This document shows positions 4,874-6,921 of a DNA stretch of 64,000 nt, one piece after another. This DNA is from Bifidobacterium sp. N4G05 (GTDB lineage: Bacteria > Actinomycetota > Actinomycetes > Actinomycetales > Bifidobacteriaceae): positions 124,001 to 188,000 of the forward strand of contig NZ_NJNQ01000005.1 of assembly GCF_002742445.1 (NCBI RefSeq). The letters are read 5' to 3'. Made by a program: the position numbers and the translations under genes. The notes beneath the pieces are model-generated. The model searched no databases and had not been told where the DNA came from. It worked only from the letters and a program-made list of their open reading frames with translations. Numbering within the stretch: position 1 is the stretch's first letter; each line of letters begins with the position of its first letter.

Positions 4874-5086
4874 TCACCCCTCAGTTTTGTCAATAATCGA
4901 CACGAACTGGTCGTGCGGCAGCATGTCGTCATAGCTACGCCAACGGCGTTCCAGCTCACGATTTGCCTCGTCATGCTGTTGTTGCCCAAGTTTGGCATAA
5001 GCTTTCAGCTCGTTCGGTCCCATATCTTTGACCGGCTGATTGAGATTCAATGCTTCGTCACTCACAGACAGCCATTGTAGCCACAC
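4874..5086 (-). CDS. Small charged protein of unknown function
   Basis: The frame encodes up to 70 residues, rich in charged and amide residues ('KLGQQQHDEANRELERRWRS'), with a predicted long helix in the middle and no membrane segment. The start at 5086 is GTG. An in-frame GTG at 5065 giving a 63-residue protein (VSDEALNLNQ...) is equally possible, and neither has a strong ribosome binding site. It lies 73 bases upstream of the GarA gene and may be part of that transcript. No family recognised. Confidence 0.6.
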   Translation of the reverse strand: MWLQWLSVSDEALNLNQPVKDMGPNELKAYAKLGQQQHDEANRELERRWRSYDDMLPHDQFVSIIDKTEG

Positions 5087-5103
5087 ACCCTGAAAGAGTA
5101 CGA

Positions 5104-5134
5104 AAAAGCCCGGATACAGCGTGTGCCCGGGCTT
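5104..5134 (-). terminator. Rho-independent terminator
   Basis: Arms AAGCCCGG (5106-5113) and CCGGGCTT pair across a 13-base loop. On the minus strand the stem is followed by TTTTTC. It ends the transcript of the 43-residue peptide gene. Confidence 0.8.
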
Positions 5135-5171
5135 AAATCACATTTAAAGATCAATATTACAAAGAATAATT

Positions 5172-5303
5172 TCAGCGCTGCTCGTCGATCATTTCCTGCA
5201 GTGCCTTGTTGACGGACGGAGAACCGGCCGCCATGGACAGGGCGTTGATGCCGCTGATTTCGAAACCACGCTTGATTGCGGAGAAAATCTGATTCTTGTT
5301 CAT
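5172..5303 (-). CDS. 43-residue peptide with its own terminator
   Basis: This short frame encodes 43 residues beginning MNKNQIFSAIKRGFEISG and ending QEMIDEQR. An excellent AAGGAAA ribosome binding site lies 5 bases before the ATG, and a strong rho-independent terminator follows about 40 bases after the stop, so it looks like a deliberate monocistronic unit. The peptide has an amphipathic N-terminal helix, a small-residue stretch ('SMAAGSPS') and a charged C-terminal helix. It has no cysteine and no obvious secretion signal or double-glycine site. I do not recognise it; signalling peptide, small regulator or bacteriocin-like roles are all unproven. Confidence 0.7.
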   Translation of the reverse strand: MNKNQIFSAIKRGFEISGINALSMAAGSPSVNKALQEMIDEQR

Positions 5304-5708
5304 GTTATTTCCTTAGTGCTCGTTTTCTTTGACGCACCTTGCGTCTTACCATCTTCTGTTGTTGACAAGTACCAATATAGAGATTTGTCAGACTGAAATC
5401 ATTGCCCGACCATTCGTTTTATAGCAAAATCATCGGTTACTCTTGAATTAAGAGCATTGACTGGAGAGTATGGTTTCGGCCAGCGAGTTCGCCCTGCCGG
5501 CCGCTACATACGACACGCCTGAAACGACGCCCAAACCGACGAAAACGAGCCAGTCGAAACCACTGCAGACCCTACTGCAGACCGAAACGCCCATGACCAT
5601 GAGAGCCACCGTCCAAACCCGACGGCCGCCACCCATTTCCGACACGCCGAACGAAACGGCGGAATCCCAACGAAACCAACAAAAAAAGCGGCACATCATG
5701 CCGCCCGA
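5304..5708. other. Intergenic region with promoter-like inverted repeat
   Basis: It contains the upstream region of the 43-residue peptide gene and the terminator of the tRNA cluster. The arms TTGACAA (5362-5368) and TTGTCA (5385-5390) form an imperfect dyad that could be an operator or overlap the peptide promoter. Open frames on both strands between 5448 and 5718 have no usable start context, and one runs through the tRNA terminator, so I do not call a gene. Confidence 0.55.
5680..5704 (-). terminator. Terminator of the tRNA cluster
   Basis: GCGGCA (5688-5693) pairs with TGCCGC (5699-5704) around a 5-base loop. On the minus strand a run of seven T follows. It lies just downstream of tRNA-Val(CAC). 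Confidence 0.85.
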
Positions 5709-5784
5709 TGGTGGGTGATATAGGAATCGAACCTATGACCCCTTCCGTGTGAAGGAAGTGCGCTAGCCGCTGCGCCAATCACCC
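5709..5784 (-). tRNA. tRNA-Val (CAC)
   Basis: The minus strand folds into a full cloverleaf with acceptor GGGTGAT/ATCACCC and a TTCGATTC T-loop. The anticodon loop TTCACAC gives CAC, which reads GUG. The 3' CCA is encoded (5709-5711). It is the last gene of a four-tRNA cluster. Confidence 0.96.
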
Positions 5785-5815
5785 AATAATGGTTGTACAG
5801 GAACTCATGTCCCAG

Positions 5816-5887
5816 TGGGCGATACAAGATTCGAACTTGTGACCCCTTCCGTGTCAGGGAAGTGCGCTACCTCTGCGCCAACCGCCC
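5816..5887 (-). tRNA. tRNA-Val (GAC)
   Basis: A 72-base cloverleaf has acceptor GGGCGGT/ATCGCCC (one G-U pair) and anticodon loop CTGACAC, giving GAC. CCA is not encoded. It shares most of its D-arm and anticodon-stem sequence with the neighbouring tRNA-Val(CAC), pointing to local duplication and divergence. Confidence 0.96.
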
Positions 5888-5926
5888 AGGTTATCCATCA
5901 CGCCAACTTACGTCGAGCACAATGAG

Positions 5927-5997
5927 AGGTGGGTACGAGAGTCGAACTCGTCTATACGGCTTTGCAGGCCGCTGCCTAACCGCTTGGCTAACCCACC
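5927..5997 (-). tRNA. tRNA-Cys (GCA)
   Basis: A 71-base cloverleaf has acceptor GGTGGGT/ACCCACC, U73 as expected for cysteine, and anticodon loop CTGCAAA, giving GCA. CCA is not encoded. Confidence 0.96.
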
Positions 5998-6027
5998 TTA
6001 AAGGTCGATAATCAATCGGAACCTTAG

Positions 6028-6100
6028 AGCGGACAACGGGACTCGAACCCGCGGTCTCAACCTTGGCAAGGTTGCGCTTTACCAACTAAGCTATGTCCGC
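6028..6100 (-). tRNA. tRNA-Gly (GCC)
   Basis: A 73-base cloverleaf has acceptor GCGGACA/TGTCCGC, U73 and anticodon loop TTGCCAA, giving GCC. It is the promoter-proximal member of the Gly-Cys-Val-Val cluster. Confidence 0.96.
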
Positions 6101-6198
6101 ATGTGCTCTGCAGTATCACTGCCTGAGCACGAGTATTTACTATAATCACATTCCCGTAATTTGCAAATCAGCGTGTCGCGCCTTTTCGGGACGCGATG

Positions 6199-6921
6199 TC
6201 AACCGAAATACTCTTCGACGGACTGCGCAAGTTCGCTTACGGTATCGATGACTTGGTATGCGCCATGCTCCTTAAGCTCGCCTGGCTCAGCATAGCCCCA
6301 TCCGCATCCCAAGCAATCCAGACCGCACGCCTTGGCCCCATCGGCATCGGTCCAGCGATCGCCAACCATCAACGCACGATCACCGGCAGCCTCATCAAAA
6401 CCGATATGCTCAAACGCCCAACGGATCACCTGATCCTTGTCAAGGCGGGAATTATCGGTGCTTGCACCATAAATACCGTCGACCATCGTATCCAAGTGGA
6501 AATGCTCACAAATCGGAATGCACTGATACTGCGGCTTGCAACTGGCAATCGCCAGATAATATCCATCAGCACGCAATTTGGTCAGCTGCTCCGGAATACC
6601 CTCGTAGATGGTATTGTTCAAACGCCCCGGCACTTTCTGCCCGGGATTGTTGGGATCGTCGAACACAGCCTCATCTGCATAATACCTGCGATAAATAGCA
6701 ATGCCCTCATCAAGACGATCTTCAGGAATATCGTTGCGCTGCAGGGATTCAATAATCGCAGGACCGATGAATCGCTGTAACTCCTCACCATCCGGGACCG
6801 GATACCCCAATTCCTCGAACACCTTGACCACACAGCCGATGATTCCCGGATCGGATTTGGTCAGCGTACCGTCGAGGTCAAGCAGAACGACTTTCTTGGA
6901 TTGCTTGGTCTGTTCGGACAT
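6199..6921 (-). CDS. HAD-superfamily phosphatase, phosphoglycolate-phosphatase-like
   Basis: The 240-residue protein shows all four HAD motifs: I 'DLDGTLT' near residue 15, II 'AIASCKP' near 129, the motif III lysine in the 'RLDKDQV' area, and IV 'VGDRWTDADGA' near 195. A helical cap is inserted after motif I, as in the Gph/5'-nucleotidase-like branch. It probably dephosphorylates a small phosphate ester in the cytoplasm. The substrate cannot be told from sequence. It lies alone between the tRNA cluster and rbpA. Confidence 0.87.
   Translation of the reverse strand: MSEQTKQSKKVVLLDLDGTLTKSDPGIIGCVVKVFEELGYPVPDGEELQRFIGPAIIESLQRNDIPEDRLDEGIAIYRRYYADEAVFDDPNNPGQKVPGRLNNTIYEGIPEQLTKLRADGYYLAIASCKPQYQCIPICEHFHLDTMVDGIYGASTDNSRLDKDQVIRWAFEHIGFDEAAGDRALMVGDRWTDADGAKACGLDCLGCGWGYAEPGELKEHGAYQVIDTVSELAQSVEEYFG

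Follow-up and report, generated by a model that had tools for sequence, protein, structure and literature searches.

Small accessory proteins of a few dozen residues, such as AcrZ, KdpF, and MntS, modulate a transporter, and they are mostly membrane-embedded or metal-linked. The E. coli protein SgrT, which is 43 aa long and encoded on SgrS, inhibits EIICB-Glc (PMC3901232). In Bifidobacterium, LacI proteins make up 63% of the carbohydrate regulators counted (PMC4746261 and PMC6882875), and PMC7903761 describes one novel small protein of B. longum, BL1 (57 aa), identified in silico.

Small proteins are poorly annotated. The peptide considered here is encoded in a stretch of 64,000 nucleotides from Bifidobacterium sp. 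N4G05 (hereafter, the window, i.e., the whole stretch that was analysed). Profile searches place it, not as an orphan, in an unnamed small-protein family of Bifidobacteriaceae that is present in 35 of 112 genomes of this major gut genus. The association of family members with a pentitol-type transporter or with a LacI repressor suggests that these peptides may fine-tune sugar use.

The peptide gene and its signals

The gene is read from the minus strand (5303-5172), and its product is MNKNQIFSAIKRGFEISGINALSMAAGSPSVNKALQEMIDEQR (43 aa). The features discussed below are as follows (window coordinates):

5106..5134, minus strand: intrinsic terminator, -17.2 kcal/mol, z -3.5, running into U's
5172..5303, minus strand: ORF of the 43-residue peptide (F1 branch of the family), ATG to TGA, last residue Arg (CGC); from sequence and Ka/Ks
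5309..5314, minus strand: Shine-Dalgarno sequence AAGGAA, 5 nt before the ATG; from sequence, aligned with relatives
5331..5345, minus strand: 5'UTR hairpin GACGCAAGGTGCGTC, 15 nt, ahead of the ribosome site; -8.1 kcal/mol, z -2.3
5362..5390, no strand assigned: dyad TTGACAA (5362-5368)/TTGTCA (5385-5390)
5374..5379, minus strand: likely -10 element TATATT, position aligned among relatives, read from alignment A5
5397..5402, minus strand: likely -35 element ATGATT (ATGACT in some relatives), with a 17-nt spacer to the -10; read from the alignment
5424..5434, minus strand: degenerate upstream box GATGATTTTGC (GATGAAAATAC in several relatives)

The initial annotation described this gene as self-contained, with a strong ribosome binding site, a good terminator, and an upstream dyad, and regarded it as a controlled transcript for one small peptide. 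The ribosome binding site (AAGGAA at 5314-5309) and the terminator (5134-5106) are both good, and none of 200 shuffled sequences folds as well as the latter. The gene is indeed self-contained; however, two relatives (G012 and G024) carry two paralogous peptides in tandem, and the description as a transcript of a single peptide thus holds only in part. Similarly, the dyad is present but not conserved: by eye, both arms are kept in only three of eight genomes (G000, G068, and G069), a single arm differs in G083, and the dyad is absent from G059, G106, G012, and G024. It was therefore rejected as a conserved operator or control element. Its exact 29-mer occurs at 3 of 193 loci, all three from the window's own genome; as RNA, it forms a weak hairpin (z -1.4), and it straddles the likely -10 element (TATATT, 5379-5374).

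The conserved -35/-10 pair is likely the promoter of the peptide gene. A simple consensus scan of positions 5000-5700 returned neither this likely promoter nor the terminator among its sites; it yielded one promoter-like site, on the other strand, a number that equals the chance expectation, and the terminator probably escaped it because the arms are 11 nt apart, whereas the scan allows loops of at most 8. A longer exact form of the upstream box, GATGAAAATACNANNAATC, possibly represents an activator site, as it has three copies in 112 genomes, each of which precedes an F1 peptide; the window's genome has none. These three copies (L181-L183) lie in two different genomic contexts. The hairpin of the window-type leader is paired in all 45 counted cells of eight sequences; its covariation is weak, being limited to a single compensated pair in one of the eight sequences, a level equalled by 66 of 500 shuffles. 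Rfam models detected only six tRNAs in the window, and the short leader, the ORF, and the terminator together leave little room for a dual-function sRNA, although the transcript may have an RNA role that Rfam does not list. Downstream of the peptide gene lies a 70-aa ORF (4874-5086) with no Pfam or NCBIfam match, which is found in 14 of 112 genomes, in nine of them at an identity of at least 81%.

The window-type ORF is kept in eight genomes of the genus. The protein is identical in four of these, with at most two synonymous differences, and Ka is lower than Ks in all pairs that differ (26 of 28; Ka/Ks 0-0.34, with one codon gap in G024 placed by hand in the alignment). The synonymous-rate check proposed in the initial annotation thus confirms that the gene is real and under purifying selection. 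Frame disruption, which had been named as evidence against the gene, is seen in one (G099) of the nine genomes that carry the closest downstream 70-aa ORF, whereas the frame is intact in eight genomes. The first 31 peptide codons of G099 are replaced by unrelated sequence, while its last 12 codons, with a change in a single codon, can still be aligned, as can the sequence that follows; therefore, the gene is selected and yet can be lost. At this locus (L170), upstream of position 1391, the unrelated sequence is fused in frame to the last peptide codons. The pattern of selection is that of a peptide that is probably translated.

An unnamed family in Bifidobacteriaceae

The statement that no family is recognised is accurate for the sequence libraries, as searches of Pfam, NCBIfam, PHROGs, and the PDB by sequence gave no match of weight for the family, but the peptide nevertheless belongs to a large one. 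A fold search of the PDB with the AlphaFold model returned nothing at E <= 0.001, and a literature search of titles and abstracts yielded, among the matches listed, no description of the family, although small-protein catalogues may hold it unnamed. A phage or plasmid origin was considered and rejected: tblastn gave 249 Staphylococcus phage records with a best E of 0.1, and none in plasmids; among the 20 matches listed, the phage matches are mostly to DNA helicase where annotated.

A profile of the F1 branch, to which the window peptide belongs, detected 22 loci (E below 1e-15), spread over 17 of the 112 genomes of the genus. With a wider profile, a second branch was found, F2 (MSFKDSMLRGLAMYG...), comprising 35 ORFs in 23 genomes; the two profiles align at E 3.3e-5 (probability 72.5%), and five genomes carry both branches. 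Codons 4-5 of F2 are AAG GAT (Lys4-Asp5) in all 35 ORFs, a constraint at the level of codons. An earlier profile, applied to 396 genomes of the order, had found as its best matches outside the genus (E 7.8e-5) only pieces of 277-317-aa frames, along with two shorter frames (L066 and L070) that looked like chance. The resulting restriction to a single genus was overturned by the better profile, which at E <= 0.001 detects members in 44 of 189 Bifidobacteriaceae genomes, with frequent tandem copies. Nine of these genomes belong to a second genus and carry up to six copies each; one of them, G517, has eight copies at a looser cut, six of which are in tandem in one stretch. Weaker matches, i.e., those in G112 (E 0.002) and G084 (E 0.046) and at L050, L052-L055, L066, and L070, are not counted as family, and the ORF counts do not include L022-L025, L122, or another weak match in L085, all of which were judged to be chance matches.

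Members are 38-44 residues long and share an RG motif, a mid Gly, and a C-terminal Arg (alignment A4), all of which are present in the window peptide. Among 46 aligned members, Met1, Gly13, Gly18, and the final Arg do not vary, and Arg12 is found in at least 90%. The last residue is Arg in all 102 ORFs (57 of 57 in the first set and 45 of 45 in the second genus), a count that is not wholly independent, as the search profiles include that column. For the window peptide, AlphaFold predicts with moderate confidence (mean pLDDT 73.8, pTM 0.33) two helices, at residues 3-26 and 29-42. Leader hairpins are also widespread: when the 36-nt leaders were folded, 48 of the 57 distinct ones had a z below -1 (mean z -2.5), and their stems vary in sequence. 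The exceptions include the leader of the second ORF in G012 and that in G024, and these two ORFs encode the closest relatives of the window peptide in their genomes.

Genomic associations of the two branches

A match above the curated cut-off to RbtT, a transporter of the RbtT/DalT/CsbX family, is found in 20 of 112 genus genomes, including all 17 F1 genomes; the naive hypergeometric probability of this overlap is 2e-17, which takes no account of common descent, and the F1 genomes belong to a small number of groups. Among 14 well-known control genomes, RbtT is found in two. One of the transporters scored 467.7 bits (cut-off 375). All nine F1 loci of the AGYSES/AGYSEA type, in eight genomes, lie 0.31-0.85 kb from an RbtT match (tblastn; the gap for L021 was obtained by subtraction); these transporters are of two paralogue types, and peptide and transporter are divergent in five cases. 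The other 13 of the 22 F1 loci (L085, L090, L091, and ten window-type loci) are not beside RbtT. Conversely, RbtT occurs without an intact F1 gene in G066 (which has F2), G129, and G099 (which has the remnant). In the window's genome, the RbtT locus is unlinked to the peptide gene and lies on another contig (G000:C4); it comprises AraC, dehydrogenase, RbtT, ROK, and glyoxalase genes. No family peptide was detected within 15 kb around this locus, and no operator common to the window peptide and the RbtT/ROK intergenic region was seen by eye. The link between the window peptide itself and a transporter would thus be one of family membership and unlinked co-occurrence. Moreover, no RbtT match exceeds the cut-off in 17 of the 23 F2 genomes; therefore, RbtT is not the target of the whole family.

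The F2 branch has a different partner. The F2 genomes are exactly those (23 of 112, kinship ignored) that carry one LacI orthologue at an identity of at least 72% to the LacI of G085. This gene lies in the same fetched stretch as the F2 cluster in 20 of the 23 genomes, usually in divergent orientation and with its centre about 0.7-1 kb upstream of that of the cluster, and elsewhere in the genome in G067, G097, and G124. A palindrome, TGAAACCGGTTTCA, is found upstream of all 24 F2 clusters, exactly in 23 and with a mismatch in one (G109). Exact copies number 38 and are distributed over 28 of the 112 genomes, compared with a single occurrence of a control pattern, and in 18 of the 22 F2 genomes that hold an exact copy, it is found nowhere but upstream of peptides. 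It may thus be the site at which the F2-partner LacI acts. Of the 15 exact sites that do not precede F2 clusters, two precede, as read, a third small peptide, F3; eight are in G016, G018, and G033, which have a LacI relative of 53-56% identity and in which no F2 was found, suggesting a sister LacI regulon; and five (G017, G067, G075, G077, and G113) lie in or near unrelated genes. Those read among the eight (L133, L145, L158, and L184-L188) include sites that precede sugar-linked genes (GH43-like, MFS, and SDR). G093 has two LacI relatives of the 53-56% type and no exact palindrome. The F3 peptide (MANKNIFGDFINYCADNMFPESIAREKMAEVARRNGNR in G124) also ends in Arg, and it has strong matches in 3 of 112 genomes, at L157 (G124), L160 (G097), and L161 (G030); it follows the exact palindrome in G124 and G097, and the G030 stretch contains no exact copy.

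The second genus partly repeats both associations and provides what appears to be the most independent support for a link to sugars. Its counts refer to 14 loci of nine genomes, with distances obtained by subtraction. An RbtT match lies 0.1-1.1 kb from the peptide in five loci (as two pieces in L220), a LacI orthologue (66-68%) lies 2.7 and 3.6 kb from it in two, and the exact palindrome is upstream of the peptide in three. Seven loci have neither RbtT nor LacI, and one of these has the palindrome before the peptide. At position 6699 of L223, the palindrome is also upstream of another gene (ORF 5507-6667, minus strand), which we take, from its sequence, to be a glycoside hydrolase.

Possible roles and known systems

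Taken together, the best explanation appears to be that the family comprises intracellular accessory regulators of carbohydrate uptake or entry, with F1 working alongside an RbtT-type pentitol system and F2 under a LacI protein; this remains tentative, and we assign it a probability of roughly 0.4. Each member would be expressed as a small transcript of its own, controlled by a regulator that responds to sugar, and the expression of F2 would be set by its partner LacI-type repressor at TGAAACCGGTTTCA. The product would be a near-neutral intracellular protein with two short predicted helices, probably binding a transporter or an enzyme through the RG motif, the mid Gly, and the C-terminal Arg; the likeliest partner of F1 would be the RbtT/DalT/CsbX-type (pentitol) transporter locus. 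A product that acts in trans is suggested by the terminator behind the window ORF and by the lack of any gene that recurs immediately after the F2 ORFs (clustered ORFs within 5 kb, 39 loci). Within this framework, an SgrT-like brake or adaptor on the transporter or first enzyme is our best guess, since both the neighbouring genes and the co-occurrences suggest a role in the entry of sugars or pentitols. A narrower version, namely, stand-alone post-translational brakes or adaptors with one copy per sugar-entry system (RbtT for F1, and F2 as the main exact-site target of its LacI) that dock by the invariant C-terminal Arg, is conceivable but doubtful.

It is also possible, although unlikely, that the peptide is a conserved small accessory protein with some unrelated housekeeping role, such as binding an OdhI-like FHA protein, and that the co-occurrence with RbtT reflects shared ancestry, which the counts indeed ignore. 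The neighbours in the window's clade, i.e., the 70-aa ORF and an FHA gene, would fit such a role; however, when ORFs lying no more than 5 kb away were clustered (39 loci), the FHA gene formed a group in the five window-type loci alone, and the associations with RbtT and LacI recur in part in the second genus. Small, helical, leaderless peptides encoded in tandem arrays of diverging copies, such as the six in one stretch of G517, might instead be bacteriocin-like, membrane-active, or type I toxins, and helix 2 of the window peptide is amphipathic at the edge of significance (5% of shuffles have a moment as high). Nonetheless, 40% of shuffles reach the moment of helix 1, the net charge of 50 family sequences is 0 to +3 with no Trp, the protein is identical in four genomes, and the C-terminal Arg is invariant. 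Pfam and NCBIfam matched no leaderless bacteriocin, PSM, or type I toxin family, PHROGs gave no match of weight, and toxins are, to our knowledge, not usually associated with LacI or a transporter, all of which makes this explanation rather improbable.

The conserved Arg-stop end raises the question of whether the ORF encodes a cis-acting leader (arrest) peptide, at the end of which the ribosome would stall and thereby control a downstream gene or its own transcript. The last codon is CGC in 100 of 102 ORFs (56 of 57 in the first set, 44 of 45 in the second genus), whereas, among the first 57 ORFs, the Arg of the RG motif is encoded by CGC 42 times and by CGT 14 times (Fisher p 2e-4 against the last codon, kinship ignored); the stop codon is TGA in 98 of 102 (57 of 57 and 41 of 45, respectively), compared with 11 of 20 in the LacI genes beside F2; and the leader RNAs contain hairpins. 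However, the invariance of TGA in the first 57 ORFs is broken in the second genus, in which TAA and TAG occur, and TGA is thus not required. Selection acts along the protein, and the terminator after the window ORF and the lack of a recurring gene downstream of F2 also argue against arrest, which we regard as very unlikely. The small size, the tandem paralogues, and the conserved C-terminus could also suit a secreted signalling peptide (pheromone) or its precursor, but no signal peptide or leader pattern was seen by eye, and no receptor or exporter gene recurs beside the peptides in the clusters of ORFs within 5 kb, as read; such a role is highly improbable.

If the preferred explanation, i.e., accessory regulation of carbohydrate entry, is correct, bifidobacterial sugar use would gain a regulatory layer both from a LacI protein whose likely operator is found mostly before a small protein and from a peptide linked to a pentitol-type transporter. 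The F2 arrangement resembles the local LacI sugar regulons of Bifidobacterium (RbsR, AraQ, and MalR) in regulator family and palindromic operators, and it differs from them in that the exact palindrome is confined to sites upstream of small peptides in most F2 genomes. The string GAAACCGG is absent from the main text of PMC4746261, and GAAACC is absent from that of PMC6882875. Compared with AcrZ, KdpF, and MntS, the family is similar in size and, by eye, without a membrane helix. Membership in the SgrT family is not claimed, and no SgrT family was matched when 46 members were searched against Pfam-A and NCBIfam at E up to 1. The sequences are dissimilar, the proposed partner is an MFS rather than a PTS protein, and, unlike SgrT, the peptides have their own mRNA, an association with LacI and an operator in F2, and tandem copies. 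The likeness would thus be one of logic: as in the case of SgrT, a protein of the same length would join a sugar-linked signal to a sugar transporter, to which the link is, in this family, a genomic one.
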